Virus record (IMG/VR): IMGVR_UViG_3300037587_000413
Coordinates: 1-41,268 of that record
DNA length: 41,268 nucleotides
Reading direction: 5' to 3' (one strand)
Source of the DNA: a virus
Numbering within the stretch: position 1 is the stretch's first letter; every line of letters begins with the position of its first letter. The notes under the pieces were generated by a model that was not told where the DNA came from, did not search any database, and saw nothing but the letters and a program-made list of their open reading frames with translations. A program made the position numbers and the translations under genes. Below, in pieces: positions 138-41,263 of this stretch.

Positions 138-164
138 AGCCGCTTCAATAGCGGCTTTCTTTTA
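138..164 (+). terminator. Rho-independent terminator after the HTH gene
   Basis: A perfect 6-bp stem AGCCGC / GCGGCT (138-143 with 151-156) with a 7-base loop is followed by TTCTTTTAT. It begins 15 bases after the stop of the HTH gene. It should end the operon that carries the PAPS-reductase-like and HTH genes, so the next gene needs its own promoter, which is found at 177-217. Confidence 0.8.
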
Positions 165-176
165 TGTGCGATAAAC

Positions 177-217
177 TTGATCTAGGTCAATGTTATATTT
201 ATTGATGGTGCTAGTAT
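177..217 (+). promoter_or_regulatory. Promoter with FNR-type box (copy 1)
   Basis: TTGATCTAGGTCAA (177-190) matches the FNR consensus TTGAT-N4-ATCAA with one mismatch. An extended -10 element, TGC then TAGTAT (212-217), begins 35 bases after the start of the box. With a start site about 7 bases after the -10, the box centre lies near -41, the class II activator position. No good -35 hexamer is present, as expected for an activator-dependent promoter. The arrangement is identical in register to 39520-39560. Confidence 0.65.
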
Positions 218-2349: not shown

Positions 2350-2535
2350 ATGAATAAACCAACAAACATACCAGAGTTCACAATTAAACTAGTCATCGAT
2401 CAGCAAGGTTTAAAATTAAACGCTGAGATAACGGTTAACGCGCATTGTCGTGAAGATGCTGAGTTAGCGGCTGAAATGGTATTGCAATCTAAGTTTGGTG
2501 TTAATTTTGATTATGGGTGGTTTGTTAAGGATTGA
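2350..2535 (+). CDS. Small conserved phage protein, paralogue of the 249-449 product
   Basis: A 61-aa protein similar in length and pattern to the product of 249-449: EFTI, a TVNAH core, DAE, then KFGVNF and a terminal WF.KD. The pair suggests an old duplication inside one operon. There is no strong ribosome site beyond the AAGTAGACAAG repeat. Function unknown. Confidence 0.7.
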   Translation: MNKPTNIPEFTIKLVIDQQGLKLNAEITVNAHCREDAELAAEMVLQSKFGVNFDYGWFVKD

Positions 2536-4417: not shown

Positions 4418-5008
4418 TTAAACCTCCCAATGTCCAGTTACAGCGTTAAATATAAACTCAAAGTTAACGCCTGTATTAGTTAAATTAAAGACGGTATGTG
4501 AACCGCCAGTGCTAGTTTTTATTAATTCTGATTGTGTACCGTCAACAGTTAATGTGCTTGATACTGCTGCGATTGACGCAACAACCTTGAATCGTTCACC
4601 ACCTGTGAAACCTGTTACATCTGGCATTGTTATTGTTGAGTTTGCTGTTAGGAAATATTCAACGCCGATTAAAAAGGTTGCCGTTCCTGTTGCTGTGGTT
4701 CGTTTTTTTAATACTGCTATTGCTGCTGTATTTGTTGCTATGTTGGTTACATTCGTTGCTATATTACTAGTGTTAGTAGATATCGCCGAAGTATTAGTAT
4801 CTGTTTGTGGTGATTCAACAGGGTTAGCGTAAAGCAAATTAGTTAATTGAACGCCTGAACCAGCATCAGCAGCATCGATATCATACCATTGAATCGTTGA
4901 GCCTGTTTGAACAGCTACCGTTGCCCCCGCTCTTAGCTTAGATGCAACCATTCGTGCTTGGGATGCAAATAGCCCGTTTATCTCTGTTAAGCCTGATGTT
5001 AAAGCCAT
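4418..5008 (-). CDS. Putative tail fibre protein with trimeric coiled coil
   Basis: A 196-aa protein. Residues about 70-98 form a run of T-N-x-x-x-I repeats (TNTSNIATN and relatives), the pattern of parallel trimeric coiled coils in tail fibres and YadA-type stalks. The N-terminal 65 residues probably dock to the spike or tail; the C-terminal 100 residues form a glycine- and threonine-rich beta domain ending in GHWEV. The start overlaps the stop of the spike gene (TAATG), so the two are coupled and may form one adhesion device. Confidence 0.75.
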   Translation of the reverse strand: MALTSGLTEINGLFASQARMVASKLRAGATVAVQTGSTIQWYDIDAADAGSGVQLTNLLYANPVESPQTDTNTSAISTNTSNIATNVTNIATNTAAIAVLKKRTTATGTATFLIGVEYFLTANSTITMPDVTGFTGGERFKVVASIAAVSSTLTVDGTQSELIKTSTGGSHTVFNLTNTGVNFEFIFNAVTGHWEV

Positions 5009-7482
5009 TACATTTCCACCTTAATATATATCCGATGCTCACTTGTTATCGTGTTTAAATTAACTACTGTGCCTGTTGTCATATTACGAGCCGATAATCT
5101 TAAATTACCTGTAGTAAAAAGTGTGTCAGCCTCAAAATAAAGAGGTAGCGTTGCTTGTCCGTCACTTGATGCTGTTATATTACAGAAAGGGGCAAAAGTA
5201 CCAGCCGCGCTAAGGAGTTGAGTTTCATTTTGTGGCCGTATGTCAATATCATTACCGCTCGCTAGGATTGTATCAATATTAACCTGTTGGCTGTCTGTTT
5301 TTAATACATGAGTACCAGCAACACCTCCCGAAGCTATAACCAAATAACCTTGCATAATTACACGATTAGAACCGTAAAGACTATTAGAGCTTTTAATTAG
5401 TGGACGGTAAAACTTTGCGCCTGAATCCTCGGTAGATGTCGAGCCTAAAACAAACGCACCTTCATAAGCTGCAAACGTTTCTTTAAAATCACCTTGACAA
5501 GAAATGACATATTCAATGTAATCTGTACCGATAATATTCAAGGTGTCAAATCTTTGACCAAATGGTAAATCTATATCTATCTGTGCATTATCTGCGTGGC
5601 TCACAGTATTACAAGCAAAAACTTGTATCTGATACATTTCACCAGCTGTCACATTAAACGGCAATCTTACCCTTGCATCATCACCAATACCTGCATCACA
5701 AGTAACTATCTCACCAACTGACTGTGCGTTTTCAGGATTGGCAGTATATACAACCGATCCGCTTCCTGTTTTGATTTCTGACCATTGACCTAGGTTGAAC
5801 CTTCTTGGACTTGATATTGAGGTCATGTCTGAAACAGGGAATAGGTTTTTATCTGTATTGAATTTATGCAAGCCTAATTGAGACATATCATAAACAAGCT
5901 CAGCTCTGTCTGGCGTGTATGATGCAGTATCCCAACCGTAAGAATGAAACACATCAATATCTGTAGGGTTAGCGACCCATTGATTAAATGATTGCCACAC
6001 GCTACCGTGCCCACCTAGAGCAGCCATTCTATCTAAATCAGACTGTGTATAAGGTGTTAGTGGGGTAGCCCATGCCCAACTAGATTGAGAATTAAACTCT
6101 CTTAGCTTCTCAAAGTCGCTAATCTTAAAGGAAGTAAATGTTGTCATGTTCTCATAACGATACTTACGGATAACATCATTTATTATTTCAATGTCTACAT
6201 CAGTTCGGTAAGCTTTTATTTCAGGATAAACTTTAACGCCGACATAAACAGCGTAAGCCATAAACTCATCTAGAGTCGGTATTGTTACATTATCTTCAAA
6301 AGCTGTTCCTATTGTGCGCGTAAACTTTAATACCTTTAACTGCGCCAACGATAAATTCGTTACAACACCCGTTCCATTAGTTAGACTATCAACACTCAAA
6401 TCATGGAAGCAAACAGGTATGCCGTCAGAGCTAATCTGGATGTCAAGCTCAAACGCTATGTTTTGACCGTGGCAACGATTGTAAGCCATAGACCACGCTA
6501 TCATTGTGTTTTGCGGTGCTACGTCTTGCATTCCTCTATGTATAATCACCTCCTTTTGATTGTTCAGTGTAAATTTTTGCCCGTTAAATGTTGTTAATGT
6601 ATATCTATCAGAAACATCAACATTAAAACCGTTGCCGCGTAATGAAATGATATTTGTTAAGACCGTTGCTGCTGCCGTGGAGTAAGCTATACCTAAAGAC
6701 TCCAAGCGGATAACATCACCAACCTGCTTAAACTGCTTGCCATTAACATCGTAAACACTAGCTGTTGATATCTCGACCGTTCCAGCCTTACCAGCATTTA
6801 CAAAACTAGTGTTGGCCCATACCGCGCCAAAATTATCACCTAAACTAACACCGTCTAATGTAACAAATTCTTCAGCATCCGTTAAGTCTGCCGCTGCTGC
6901 CGTTATAGCATCAGCAAAAGAACCCGACGCACCTTGTGCAGAGCCTGATGGTGCAGCTATTGATGAGGCCCATATTTCTAATACCTCATCACCTGACAGC
7001 CCTTCAGATAAGGTTAAGGTCAACGCGCCAATATTAACAGTGTAAGCGTTATCAGTTTCGTGCATCATTCGACCTGAAACAAATACAGCAGCAACCGCGA
7101 GGACATCAGCCGGTAATGCGTAAACTGTTTGATCAACAACTACGGTTAATTTACGCTTATCCGAAACTATAGCTTGTGAATCACCCACCGCATTAGCGGC
7201 TAATTGAAGCGCGTTAATGGTATCGTTAGCGTCTGCCTCTGCCGCTGTGGGGAATAGCCATAAATCATACGTGCCGTTAATGTATGGTATAAATATTTGA
7301 CTACTGACCGTGTTAATGAACCCGTTAATATCCAGTTGAGCTTTAGCAAGTTGAGTATCACCCGTTGAATCTGTAGCTATTACTTTAGGCGTGGTCGTTC
7401 CGGGACTATAAGCTTTTAGCCAATAGCCGTTTAATTCATCATAGTTTGGTGCGACTAGCGCTATTGGGGCGAATGCTGCCAT
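5008..7482 (-). CDS. Tailspike with glycerophosphodiester phosphodiesterase (GDPD) domain
   Basis: An 824-aa protein. Residues 1-95 match the particle-binding N-terminus common to podovirus spikes (WLKAYSPGTTTPK, ATDSTG, IPYINGTYDLWLFPT). A linker domain follows to about 310. Residues 312 to about 560 are a GDPD fold: HRG at 315-317, APQNT at 322-326, ELD at 345-347, HD at 360-361 and YPEIK at 419-423. These supply the two catalytic histidines (315, 360) and the metal-binding E345, D347 and E421 of the family. About 260 further residues look beta-rich and may bind receptor or trimerise. The likely role is hydrolysis of phosphodiester-linked glycerol on capsule, O-antigen or teichoic-like polymer during adsorption. 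The gene is coupled to the fibre gene downstream. Confidence 0.85.
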   Translation of the reverse strand: MAAFAPIALVAPNYDELNGYWLKAYSPGTTTPKVIATDSTGDTQLAKAQLDINGFINTVSSQIFIPYINGTYDLWLFPTAAEADANDTINALQLAANAVGDSQAIVSDKRKLTVVVDQTVYALPADVLAVAAVFVSGRMMHETDNAYTVNIGALTLTLSEGLSGDEVLEIWASSIAAPSGSAQGASGSFADAITAAAADLTDAEEFVTLDGVSLGDNFGAVWANTSFVNAGKAGTVEISTASVYDVNGKQFKQVGDVIRLESLGIAYSTAAATVLTNIISLRGNGFNVDVSDRYTLTTFNGQKFTLNNQKEVIIHRGMQDVAPQNTMIAWSMAYNRCHGQNIAFELDIQISSDGIPVCFHDLSVDSLTNGTGVVTNLSLAQLKVLKFTRTIGTAFEDNVTIPTLDEFMAYAVYVGVKVYPEIKAYRTDVDIEIINDVIRKYRYENMTTFTSFKISDFEKLREFNSQSSWAWATPLTPYTQSDLDRMAALGGHGSVWQSFNQWVANPTDIDVFHSYGWDTASYTPDRAELVYDMSQLGLHKFNTDKNLFPVSDMTSISSPRRFNLGQWSEIKTGSGSVVYTANPENAQSVGEIVTCDAGIGDDARVRLPFNVTAGEMYQIQVFACNTVSHADNAQIDIDLPFGQRFDTLNIIGTDYIEYVISCQGDFKETFAAYEGAFVLGSTSTEDSGAKFYRPLIKSSNSLYGSNRVIMQGYLVIASGGVAGTHVLKTDSQQVNIDTILASGNDIDIRPQNETQLLSAAGTFAPFCNITASSDGQATLPLYFEADTLFTTGNLRLSARNMTTGTVVNLNTITSEHRIYIKVEM
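5009..5031 (-). repeat. Recurrent gene leader (copy 4, minus strand)
   Basis: On the minus strand, TATATTAAGGTGGAAATG precedes ATG 5008. It matches the leaders at 1844 and 2090. It encodes the last residues of the spike (YIKVEM), so this leader is translated. Confidence 0.65.
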
Positions 7483-11524: not shown

Positions 11525-11851
11525 CTAAAACTGTTGGCCACTTGCCCTAATGGTAATGGTCGACGCTGTGGATATTTGAACGAATATACTACTACCAGCG
11601 GGGATTAAATGATTTATTAATTCTAAAGGAGAGTCTTGACTCGGCCCCTTTATCCCTGTCTCTTGTATGATTTCATTAGCTGCAATGGCTGAAGTCCCTA
11701 TAAACACTCTATAGCTTTCCGTTCCAGTATCTAAGCTAGCAGTAAAGGCACTTATTCTTGTTCCTTTGCCTCTATCTGGTGATGTATATAACTTTTCAGC
11801 TATAGTTGACGAGTTTTGAACTCCGTCTATTAACGATACGTTTATTGACAT
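11525..11851 (-). CDS. Small beta-rich virion protein
   Basis: A 108-aa protein predicted to be a beta sandwich, with LYTSPDRGKG near residue 21 and a final ASGQQF. It shares layout with the product of 12613-12948: LY(T/S) then a fibre-type beta core and a short C-terminal G-x-x. The two are likely paralogues. Location between the neck and ejection genes suggests a structural decoration or tail-tube accessory protein. Confidence 0.6.
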   Translation of the reverse strand: MSINVSLIDGVQNSSTIAEKLYTSPDRGKGTRISAFTASLDTGTESYRVFIGTSAIAANEIIQETGIKGPSQDSPLELINHLIPAGSSIFVQISTASTITIRASGQQF

Positions 11852-11854
11852 GAT

Positions 11855-12616
11855 TTAATTATCCACTAGTAAAATTTGAAATGAACCGCCACCATTACCG
11901 CCGGCAGCTTTAGATATACCTGATATTTTAATACACCCCAAAGGGGGTATTTCTAACCAAGGCAAATCAATAAAACCACTAGGCGCATCTATTAATTTCG
12001 CTGTATCTTGAAATAAAAATACACCGGGTATTAGCGCTCTATCTTCCCTCTCAGCAGTTGCCCTGATCCTAAAATCAACCTGCCTAACTATTGCAGAGGA
12101 TCGCCATCCGAATAAATATCCTTTTTTATCAGACGGAACAGTGTATCGCGCTGATAATGATTGATTACCACCAGCTGCTATATATTCGTAAACAGTGCCA
12201 GCACCAACTCCCTGCAAGCTTATATTTCCTGCGGAAGTATCTAATGATCCTTTAGTTTTAACATGTAACCATTGAACGTTTTCAATATCTGTAGCCGATG
12301 TTGCAACTGCTGCTGCACCGTTCATTATTATGATTTCACTTTGTTCTAATCCTGAGCCATCAAGATAGTGTAGCTCAACCGTTCTTGCGCCCGTTCCTGT
12401 TGATGTATCATTACCGCTGTTTGAAACAACTTCAAGCTGTATCCCTCCAGGTATCGGGGCTACAGTTGTCCCGGGTATCTGTGTTAAGTCATCAAGTACA
12501 GAGCTACTTATACCATCTTTACTCCCTGCAATAACATAAGTTTTCATGCCCGGCACCTGTCCGCGTGCGACCCTCAGCAGAAATGGCATTTCAAAATCAT
12601 TGATTTTTGATATCAT
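11855..12616 (-). CDS. Virion structural protein, beta-rich
   Basis: A 253-aa protein. The motif GTGARTVELHYLDGSG followed by a MNGAAAVAT segment and later YTVPSDKKGYLFGW are typical of a virion protein found in many podoviruses and marine phages. There is no signal peptide or enzyme site. It overlaps the start of the next upstream gene by four bases. Likely a tail or head-decoration component; the exact place is not determinable. Confidence 0.65.
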   Translation of the reverse strand: MISKINDFEMPFLLRVARGQVPGMKTYVIAGSKDGISSSVLDDLTQIPGTTVAPIPGGIQLEVVSNSGNDTSTGTGARTVELHYLDGSGLEQSEIIIMNGAAAVATSATDIENVQWLHVKTKGSLDTSAGNISLQGVGAGTVYEYIAAGGNQSLSARYTVPSDKKGYLFGWRSSAIVRQVDFRIRATAEREDRALIPGVFLFQDTAKLIDAPSGFIDLPWLEIPPLGCIKISGISKAAGGNGGGSFQILLVDN

Positions 12617-34995: not shown

Positions 34996-35136
34996 ATAGT
35001 CTGTATAGTGAAATGAGCTAAACGGGTATTGAAGCCGTATCTGGCGGGTTTCACCAAGATAAAATCAGGGAATCGAACCCTCTACCTACCTGCTTTACCG
35101 ATTAAGCTACTAACTCACTTCACTTATACAGACTAT
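34996..35136. repeat. Long imperfect inverted repeat around the tRNA-like element
   Basis: ATAGTCTGTATAGTGAAATGAG (split as left arm 34996-35017) pairs with 35114-35136, differing by one base change and one insertion. The 96 bases between hold the tRNA-like sequence on the minus strand. The arms could form a long stem closing that element. Confidence 0.8.
35062..35115 (-). tRNA. Degenerate tRNA-like element lacking the anticodon arm
   Basis: On the minus strand a D-arm GCTT-AATCGGTA-AAGC (35092-35107) carries the conserved GG, and a T-arm AGGG-TTCGATT-CCCT (35067-35081) has the canonical TTCGA loop. Only ten bases separate them, too few for an anticodon arm plus variable loop, and no seven-base acceptor pairing is seen beyond the surrounding long inverted repeat. 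It cannot be a normal tRNA. It may be a remnant, an attachment-site mimic or a tRNA-like RNA. Confidence 0.5.
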
Positions 35137-36029: not shown

Positions 36030-36455
36030 TTAATTATTTTTAACTATCGTAATACCGTTTAAATGGTCAATTTCATGCTGTACACAAAAAGCAGTTAGCG
36101 CACGACATTTCTTTTTGATCGGATTCCAATTGCGATCAAAGCCTTCTACTACTATTTGACTATCACGTTTAACTTTTACCTGCTTACCTGGAAACGATAA
36201 ACAGCCCTCACTACTTAGTTTTGTGCGACCTGAACGCTTGGTAATTACAGGGTTAATGATTTCCGTACTTAAGCCATTAACATTGATAACAATTACTCTT
36301 AATAAGTAACCCACTTGATTAGCTGCTAAACCAATTCCTTTTGATGCAATTAATGTTTTCCACATATCATCAATAAAACTATTAAGCTCTAAGCCTCGCT
36401 CTACACTATGAGCAACCAAAGATAAACACTCACTTCCTTTTTTCTCGATATACAT
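36030..36455 (-). CDS. def: Peptide deformylase
   Basis: A 141-aa enzyme that removes the formyl group from N-formyl-methionine of new proteins. Motif I is GIGLAANQ (40-47), motif II EGCLS (83-87, metal ligand Cys85), and motif III QHEIDH (126-131, ligands His127 and His131, catalytic Glu128). It is shorter than most bacterial forms (about 165-170 aa), lacking the C-terminal helix, as is usual for phage versions. Its presence may keep deformylation up during heavy late translation or replace the host enzyme. First minus gene of its group, divergent from 36572. Confidence 0.93.
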   Translation of the reverse strand: MYIEKKGSECLSLVAHSVERGLELNSFIDDMWKTLIASKGIGLAANQVGYLLRVIVINVNGLSTEIINPVITKRSGRTKLSSEGCLSFPGKQVKVKRDSQIVVEGFDRNWNPIKKKCRALTAFCVQHEIDHLNGITIVKNN

Positions 36456-38910: not shown

Positions 38911-39120
38911 GTGAGTAACCAAGGCCCAACAAAAGCCGAAACTCTAAATCTCATCAAGCACCATAAAATTAATTTAAACGATGGCAGCGATGAGTTAAGG
39001 CGCATTAACGATGAGTTAACCAAAGAGGTTGTGGCATTAAATAAAAGACTAGCGCTTGTTGAGGCTAGGGCTAGGTTGCATTTGGAGAGGTTGAGAGAGT
39101 ATGAGCATAAAGGACTTTAA
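38911..39120 (+). CDS. Small coiled-coil protein upstream of ninB
   Basis: A 69-aa protein from GTG 38911. A 13-codon mini-frame (38878-38919) ends in GTGAGTAA, overlapping this GTG, so translation may be coupled. Residues 22-65 are a coiled coil (DELRRINDELTKEVVALNKRLALVEARARLHLERLREY). It overlaps the ninB start by 20 bases. Confidence 0.6.
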   Translation: MSNQGPTKAETLNLIKHHKINLNDGSDELRRINDELTKEVVALNKRLALVEARARLHLERLREYEHKGL

Positions 39121-39517
39121 ACTAACGGCTAACTCAATCGGTTTGCTTATTCAGTCGATATGGAAGCTTGATTTAAACTTTGCTTACCGGGTTAATATTG
39201 TTGGCTGGCGTGAAAAGCGATCGAATGACCAAAATTCTCTTTACTGGAAATGGTTAGGAGAGATTGCACAACAGGCCCTGCATATTAGTAATGACTCTGA
39301 AATATGGCATGAGATATTTAAAAAGTTTTATTGTCCTGAAAAGGTGGTAGGTCCTGAATCAAACCCTATTATAATTAAGTCGACTAAAAAATTAGATGTC
39401 GGTGAAATGTGCTTTTACCTTAATCGTATTGAAAACTACTGTATTGATAGAGGGTATTTAATAACGATACCGCTTGAATCAGAGTACCGTGAATTAACGG
39501 ATAGACAAGTGCAATAA
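39101..39517 (+). CDS. ninB: NinB (Orf-type recombination mediator)
   Basis: A 138-aa protein matching lambda NinB/Orf. The signature YRVNIVGWREKRSNDQNSLYWKWLGEI spans residues 29-55, with the family's W-R..RS.DQN...W core. In lambda the dimer binds single-stranded DNA and helps exchange SSB for the annealing protein. It pairs functionally with ninG across the circular join and with the annealing candidate at 29195. The start overlaps the upstream gene. Confidence 0.9.
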   Translation: MSIKDFKLTANSIGLLIQSIWKLDLNFAYRVNIVGWREKRSNDQNSLYWKWLGEIAQQALHISNDSEIWHEIFKKFYCPEKVVGPESNPIIIKSTKKLDVGEMCFYLNRIENYCIDRGYLITIPLESEYRELTDRQVQ

Positions 39518-39519
39518 AC

Positions 39520-39560
39520 TTGATCTAGATCAATATGTGTTTTTCTAGTGCTGCTAATAT
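39520..39560 (+). promoter_or_regulatory. Promoter with perfect FNR-type box (copy 2)
   Basis: TTGATCTAGATCAA (39520-39533) is a perfect 14-base palindrome and a perfect match to TTGAT-N4-ATCAA. The extended -10 is TGC with TAATAT (39555-39560), again 35 bases after the box start. Box centre lies near -41 from the inferred start. The box begins three bases after the ninB stop and controls the PAPS-reductase group. Confidence 0.75.
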
Positions 39561-39592
39561 TACTACATCAGCAACGGAACGAGATAATCAAA

Positions 39593-39691
39593 ATGAAAGA
39601 TTTTCCTAAAAACCCATCAGCAGGTGTTACTTATTATATTAATGGCACTGGTTATCAATGGAATTCTATTTCAGGATGGTGGTTGGCATGA
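39593..39691 (+). CDS. Tiny Trp/Tyr-rich protein
   Basis: A 32-aa frame: FPKNPSAGVTYYINGTGYQWN then GWWL. ATG 39593 follows AACGAGATAATCAAA. PxxPxxGxTYxxNGxxYxWN-type text is found in phage fibre-like beta repeats. It overlaps the next ATG by four bases. First gene after FNR-type promoter 2. Confidence 0.5.
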   Translation: MKDFPKNPSAGVTYYINGTGYQWNSISGWWLA

Positions 39692-39925: not shown

Positions 39926-40906
39926 ATGGGTAATAAGCACGACTTTAAAGAAAGGCCAATTTTCTCTCAAGAGCTTTGGGATTCATTTTATTACAAAGTT
40001 TTAATGGGTGGCATGGGTGATGATACTTGTGAGTTAATAGCTGAATTATATGTCAGAGGCTTTGAGCCAGATGAAATTATATTCTGTGATACGGGTTCGG
40101 AGTTCCCACACACGTATGAATTTATAAAATACCTGCAAAATTGGTGTGAAGAAAAAAAATGGTCAAAGGTTGTTATCCTTAAAAAGTTAGATAAGTTTAA
40201 AGAGCCACTATCAGTTATCAGTATGATCAAATCACAAAATACATTGCCCGCCGCTGCATTTGGCAGCAAGTCATGCTCTTTAAGATTTAAAACTGAAACA
40301 GCAGATATGTATTTTAATAATAATCCTGATTGCTGGAAAGCATGGGGAATTGATAAGCCAAGACCTATAGTTAGAGTGTATGAAAATTCACTTGGGATTA
40401 TTGGGTGGAAAACTCAAGTAGGAAAAGGAACACCATTAAAGCAGCACACAGGCAAAATACTTAGGCTTGTTGGTATTAACTTCGATGAGCCAGAAAGAAT
40501 CAAAGGCTGGAAAAATCAACCAAAATGGACTCAAGCATTTCCTTTGTATGATTGGGAAATTGGAGAAGCAGAATCAACAGCGGTTGAAAGAGTTGGTTTA
40601 TATTATCCTGGTAAATCTAGCTGTTATGTTTGCCCGTACTTAACACATGGAGAGATAGCTATGCTGTATGATGACTATATTGAGCTTTATGATGAAACCA
40701 TAGGAATTGAGGATAACTATAGGAAGCATAATTTAATTGAATCGGCACAAGATGATCTATTTGGTGATGATAGCTTTGACAATACCGTTTTAGGGCTTGG
40801 CGGTAGAAATGGAAAAACAAGAGGTCAAATGTTAAAAGAGTACCAAGCAAACCCACAACACTATAAGCATTCAACAAACAAAAAACCTTGTGAGTGTGGC
40901 CATTAG
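39926..40906 (+). CDS. PAPS-reductase / DndC-like protein with altered PP-loop
   Basis: A 326-aa protein of the adenine-nucleotide alpha-hydrolase group. CDTGSEFPHTYEF (54-66), KSCSLRFK (115-122), GINFDEPERI (183-192), FPLYDWEIGEAE (205-216) and the zinc or Fe-S-type CYVCP (233-237) follow the order in phage PAPS-reductase-like proteins. The expected SGGxDS loop is replaced by MGGMGDDT (27-34), so ATP pyrophosphatase activity may be lost or changed. Roles in the group include sulfate reduction and DNA phosphorothioation; no dnd partner genes are seen. Confidence 0.75.
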   Translation: MGNKHDFKERPIFSQELWDSFYYKVLMGGMGDDTCELIAELYVRGFEPDEIIFCDTGSEFPHTYEFIKYLQNWCEEKKWSKVVILKKLDKFKEPLSVISMIKSQNTLPAAAFGSKSCSLRFKTETADMYFNNNPDCWKAWGIDKPRPIVRVYENSLGIIGWKTQVGKGTPLKQHTGKILRLVGINFDEPERIKGWKNQPKWTQAFPLYDWEIGEAESTAVERVGLYYPGKSSCYVCPYLTHGEIAMLYDDYIELYDETIGIEDNYRKHNLIESAQDDLFGDDSFDNTVLGLGGRNGKTRGQMLKEYQANPQHYKHSTNKKPCECGH

Positions 40907-40925: not shown

Positions 40926-40950
40926 TATAATAAAAGTTGATACTAATCAA
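40926..40950 (+). promoter_or_regulatory. Promoter with FNR-type box over the start site (copy 3)
   Basis: TATAAT (40926-40931) precedes TTGATACTAATCAA (40937-40950), a perfect TTGAT-N4-ATCAA palindrome. Here the box lies on the inferred start site rather than at -41, a position that would block transcription. GTAATAAATC leads to ATG 40967. The upstream -35 is poor (TTAGCT). Confidence 0.6.
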
Positions 40951-40966
40951 CCATAGGTAATAAATC

Positions 40967-41263
40967 ATGGTAGCAGCAAAGAAAACAAGCAGTAAGAAAG
41001 GTGCAAGCGTTAAGGGTGAAGGAGCAAAGGCTCGCAAGGCAATATCCAAGGCTAGAAAATCAGGAGCCACAACAAAGAATATTGCAGCAGCGGCAAATAG
41101 GGACGATAGTACGATTGCATTAATAGAGAATGGAACTATTAAAAATACACCCAAAGGATTGGCTAGCAAGATATCAAAAGCTAAAACAACATCCAAAACA
41201 CCAACTAAGAAGACCCAAGCGAGCAAGAAAAAAGCCGTGTCATCAAGGAAGAAACATAAATAA
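40967..41263 (+). CDS. Lysine-rich HTH DNA-binding protein
   Basis: A 98-aa protein, about one third Lys/Arg. Residues 1-20 are basic (VAAKKTSSKKGASVKGEG). Residues 22-66 contain KARKSGATTKNIAAAANRDDSTIALIENG, an XRE/Cro-like helix-turn-helix. Residues 68-98 are a histone-like Lys/Ser/Thr/Ala tail (KTTSKTPTKKTQASKKK). It may act as a regulator with nonspecific DNA grip, or as a nucleoid-type protein. It has an FNR-type box over its own start, so it could also be an autoregulator of that site. The gene crosses the circular join. Confidence 0.7.
   Translation: MVAAKKTSSKKGASVKGEGAKARKAISKARKSGATTKNIAAAANRDDSTIALIENGTIKNTPKGLASKISKAKTTSKTPTKKTQASKKKAVSSRKKHK

Follow-up and report, generated by a model that had tools for sequence, protein, structure and literature searches.

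Most of the promoters that FNR activates in E. coli carry an FNR site centered near -41.5 (PMC3688515), and for two of them, narG and nirB, E. coli genomes confirmed the sequences, in which 21 bases separate the box from the -10. Regulators of this kind are also linked to phages, since the cAMP-CRP of the host acts on phage T1 promoters (PMC6737242) and FNR activates CRISPR-Cas in Citrobacter rodentium in anoxia (PMC12669028). Here we describe a locus in a viral DNA of 41,268 nucleotides (the window; IMG/VR record IMGVR_UViG_3300037587_000413). It resembles narG and nirB, as well as ccoN, hemN and adhE of Alteromonadales, in combining TTGAT-N4-ATCAA, 21 bases to the -10, a center at about -41 and the lack of a -35. 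Unlike the bacterial FNR class II promoters, these predicted elements lie before phage genes, and a related phage (G003) has nine of them arrayed within 31 kb. As in T1, a CRP/FNR-superfamily regulator of the host that reports metabolic state is predicted to act at phage promoters; in T1, however, CRP represses, whereas here the position is that predicted for an activator, the -35 is missing and the likely signal is oxygen. The Citrobacter rodentium system likewise ties phage-host conflict to anoxia through FNR, but there FNR drives host defense, whereas here it would drive phage genes.

In the usual view, phages rely first on strong constitutive host promoters and later on factors of their own. 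Phage activators acting at class II positions or at the -35 include lambda CI at PRM, lambda CII, Mu Mor and T4 MotA, and the present locus would share with them the replacement of the -35 by an activator across a set of phage promoters. Those activators, however, are phage proteins, whereas the phages examined showed no CRP/FNR gene of their own: a search for the CRP/FNR helix-turn-helix (HTH) domain (PF13545) gave no match in G000, G003, G099, G085, G069 or G066, some of these records being fragments. By their anatomy the elements would be ordinary FNR class II promoters, and what appears to be new is their location in phages and their number in G003. FNR-driven phage promoters were not found described in the open-licence papers searched.

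The two predicted promoters of the window and the features around them are collected in Table 1. Both ends of the window carry the same repeat of 127 bases, so that it probably represents a circular genome of 41,141 bases, in which the first predicted transcription unit would run across the junction. The original prediction, that the 39520 box is an exact FNR consensus and a perfect palindrome, was confirmed. This box begins 2 bases past the stop codon of a ninB-like gene (39101-39517), and its extended -10 consists of the hexamer TAATAT (39555-39560) and the preceding TGC (39552-39554). Because 21 bases lie between the box and TAATAT, the box is centered at -40.5 when the hexamer is counted as -12 to -7, and at -41.5 if transcription starts one base further on; the start is predicted near 39567. 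The class II position near -41 that had been proposed therefore holds, with the same 21 bases as in narG and nirB. The best -35 match of promoter 1 was 1/6, and a -35 hexamer was looked for in promoter 2 and none was found; transcription from promoter 2 is predicted to begin near 224.

Table 1. Features of the two predicted transcription units and of the third palindrome (window coordinates)
Feature	Position	Strand	Remarks
FNR-type box TTGATCTAGATCAA, predicted promoter 1	39520..39533	+	perfect palindrome; center about -41
Extended -10 TGCTAATAT = TGC-TAATAT, predicted promoter 1	39552..39560	+	21 bases 3' of box
First small ORF after promoter 1, 32 aa	39593..39691	+	reading frame only
Gene of promoter 1 unit, 88 aa	39658..39924	+	ORF; as listed from TTG, may start later
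PAPS-reductase-like gene	39926..40906	+	phrog_424, E 6e-19
Perfect palindrome TTGATACTAATCAA	40937..40950		intergenic; no -10 at 21 bases
Small HTH gene, last in unit 1	40967..41263	+	weak phrog_6223 match
Intrinsic terminator, end of unit 1, 3' of HTH gene	138..164	+	7-pair stem, T-rich tail
FNR-type box TTGATCTAGGTCAA, predicted promoter 2	177..190	+	near-perfect, one mismatch
Extended -10 TGCTAGTAT = TGC-TAGTAT, predicted promoter 2	209..217	+	21 bases 3' of box
First gene after promoter 2, 70 aa	237..449	+	ORF

Family searches gave no match for the products of the genes at 39658 and 237, and the Pfam PAPS_reduct match of the PAPS-reductase-like gene was weak, falling under the curated cut-off. 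By eye, the products of the ORFs at 237-449 and 2350-2535 (plus strand), FTVEIAIYDPG... and FTIKLVIDQQG..., look like diverged paralogues.

Within the window, perfect TTGAT-N4-ATCAA boxes were found twice, against 0.14 expected from 300 dinucleotide shuffles, which agrees with the figure of about 0.1 in 41 kb given originally. Boxes with up to one mismatch and a -10 at 21 bases also numbered two, against 0.18 expected, with a shuffle maximum of 3. These counts by themselves are only suggestive, and two sites per 41 kb would be marginal if counts alone were considered; the two boxes might then be chance palindromes with no role in transcription. Matches to the box in viral contigs do arise in this way. 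An IMG/VR-wide scan returned at least 120 matches with the -10 at 21 bases as compared with 39 at 17, but 69 of 91 distinct matches were coding coincidences (TTGATCTAGATCAA can be translated as VDLDQ), often with one gene recurring across several contigs. Because most matches are such coding repeats, little weight was given to this enrichment, although 10 intergenic, promoter-like matches were left at 21 bases and 1 at 17. A separate pair of IMG/VR scans gave 21 versus 10, G003 supplying part of the 21. Against a chance origin, both window boxes are intergenic and share the 21-base spacing and an extended -10, a matrix derived from a related phage gives them the two highest scores in the window, and the box at 177 is conserved in position, all of which makes chance very hard to credit.

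Conservation in related phages, which had been proposed as a check of the element, was found in one relative. The terminase has 68 relatives in IMG/VR, and 31 of these records, together with one PAPS-reductase relative, were searched whole. Only one of these 32 other records contained an array of boxes, and the remaining relatives scanned gave nothing. This record, IMGVR_UViG_3300009788_000236 (G003; 31.4 kb), encodes a terminase 74% identical to that of the window. It carries six perfect boxes, each of which, read in one orientation, has TAnnnT exactly 21 bases 3', and three further boxes with one mismatch and TAnnnT likewise at 21, giving nine predicted promoters; shuffled G003 sequence contained a mean of 0.13 such combinations (up to one mismatch). 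In a blind scan over palindromes, spacers and distances, TTGAT-N4-ATCAA at 21 bases was the top motif of G003. When a matrix built from the nine G003 sites alone was applied to the window, 177 came first (26.4) and 39520 second (15.6), the maxima of 300 shuffles having a mean of 4.2 and a highest value of 18.3. Moreover, the 14-mer TTGATCTAGGTCAA is identical in G003 at 1151 on the minus strand, which is the orthologous place: both phages have, in the same order, the HTH gene, a terminator-like hairpin, TTGATCTAGGTCAA, 21 bases, a -10 and a new gene, and in both a PAPS-reductase-family gene (phrog_424) lies 5' of the HTH gene. The flanks of the box have diverged between the two, and so have the genes that follow it. 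It is because of this conservation, nine copies with the same spacing and one at the orthologous place, that the element is taken as firm. At the end of the G003 contig (L082 1-90), tandem GGTATCCGACAACGGCA repeats were observed within the gene that follows the box at 289.

The three copies originally reported, two perfect (39520 and 40937) and one near-perfect (177), are all present, but the palindrome at 40937 has no class II promoter. This candidate was rejected on the missing -10 and on its absence among the top matrix matches, and the matching place in G003 holds a half site only; we read the palindrome as a chance occurrence or an operator rather than a class II promoter. The site ranked third by the matrix (28839) was also rejected, as its box is imperfect, its -10 is CAAACT and it lies within a gene on the opposite strand.

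The two promoters of the window and the nine of G003 were aligned. Most of the 11 boxes are preceded by AAAC and have CTAR at their center, and a C is found at -13 in 11 of 11. A -35 hexamer never scored above 3/6 with spacers of 16-18, and the box occupies the place of a -35 plus its upstream contact. As judged from these sequences, the geometry is that of a sigma-contacting activator and not of a repressor operator placed over a complete promoter.

Such a geometry could also be served by an activator of the phage itself. The HTH protein (40967-41263) might bind the boxes as its operators and activate its own operons from the class II position independently of oxygen, in the way that lambda CI acts at PRM. 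Of the early genes, its own is the one best conserved between the window and G003 (57% identical); it lies directly 5' of a box in both, and in searches of IMG/VR and Alteromonadales with narrow queries its homologues were found in these two phages only. However, only coincidence would have given the HTH protein both the consensus and the spacing of FNR, hosts place the same composite before oxygen-regulated genes, and two other phages have such boxes without an HTH homologue (both contigs being fragments), so that we consider this explanation unlikely and favor a host factor. The HTH proteins of the window and of G003 (L082 1215-1454, minus strand) are small and have lysine-rich ends, in early regions that are otherwise mostly unrelated. 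None of the cultured phages searched encodes the HTH protein, and nothing similar was found in them around the box, only matches to the PAPS reductase.

The two other phages, G099 (L436-L438) and G085 (L439-L440), are T4-like contigs unrelated to the window and fragments of larger genomes. G099 has five perfect boxes before genes (5154, 6495, 14999, 41092 and 43318), four at 21 bases from the -10 and one at 22, and G085 has three (26132, 27791 and 29801), two of them at 21. In the start region of the G099 promoters, a common CATTGA/ATTGA motif was noticed 3' of the -10.

On the host side, relatives of the terminase were found in a Colwellia MAG and in an Aestuariibacter isolate, which makes a host of the order Alteromonadales likely. 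Each of the two candidate host genomes has an FNR gene whose product retains the cysteines and the ETxSR recognition helix. The composite TTGATCTARATCAA-N20-S-TAnnnT, scanned for in 395 Alteromonadales genomes, occurred 18 times at 21 bases (17 genomes) compared with 5 times at 17. It is followed by ccoN, hemN, adhE or hmp in 11 of the 17 genomes that carry it at 21 bases. Of these 11 proteins, four are near-identical ccoN and the other seven have NCBIfam matches, that of the adhE fragment scoring below the cut-off for the full length. With a looser pattern, the counts for the family Alteromonadaceae differed little between the two spacings (72 at 21 bases and 63 at 17). Among the Alteromonadales genomes (L483-L500), seven have the composite before ccoN, whose start codon there lies 117-176 bases past the -10, that is, behind a long leader.

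Dnr- and NnrR-like proteins, which sense nitric oxide, have the TTGAT-N4-ATCAA box in common with FNR. The activator could accordingly be another CRP/FNR-superfamily protein of the host, with nitric oxide or something else as the cue; the Aestuariibacter genome encodes several CRP/FNR proteins, and one host target of the composite, hmp, is a nitric oxide gene. Most host genes behind the composite, however, are typical FNR targets (ccoN, hemN and adhE), and we regard such a sensor as quite improbable.

Taken together, the boxes at 39520 and 177 would, with high probability, each serve host FNR as the activator site of a sigma-70 class II promoter; that FNR binds and activates there, that it does so at low oxygen, and where transcription starts are what we infer. 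At low oxygen, a dimer of host FNR with its iron-sulfur cluster would bind TTGATCTARRTCAA about 41 bases 5' of the start and contact the sigma and alpha subunits of RNA polymerase, standing in for the missing -35, and the polymerase would next melt the extended -10 (TGC-TAnnnT). Promoter 1 would then express the small ORF, the 39658 gene, the PAPS-reductase-like gene and the HTH gene, ending at the terminator (138-164), and promoter 2 the next early unit, from 237. The FNR-shaped promoters, two in the window and nine in its relative, are the reason for proposing that both viruses use host FNR. In this marine bacterial virus and its relative, host FNR probably drives part of the gene program. 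Possible, although we lean slightly against it, is a wider reading in which unrelated phages have repeatedly placed sets of operons under host FNR, so that infection is gated by anoxia, and FNR drives most of the early and accessory units of G003.

If host FNR does act at these promoters, some phages would sense the cell's oxygen state, and their gene expression would fall mainly in hosts low in oxygen, a state in which FNR also turns on CRISPR immunity in some bacteria (PMC12669028). This could help to account for differing phage activity in oxygen-minimum waters, sediments and biofilms.

Three further features of the window were observed on its minus strand. The phage encodes a peptide deformylase (36030-36455; PF01327, E 3e-39) and, at 5008-7482, an 824-aa protein of the tail region that contains a glycerophosphodiester phosphodiesterase domain (PF03009, E 2e-21), possibly an activity that cleaves a receptor or a teichoic-acid-like polymer. 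The third, at 35014-35116 (flanks to 35136), matches the Rfam tRNA model at 34 bits, was not called by ARAGORN, and sits within a long inverted repeat, agtctgtatagtgaaatgag / ctcacttcacttatacagact. A similar element with 30 identical bases lies between the same agtctgtatagtgaaatgag / ctcacttcacttatacagact arms in L119, near 11850-11965, and both copies appear to be a tRNA-like element whose stem is extended, the two phages being otherwise different.
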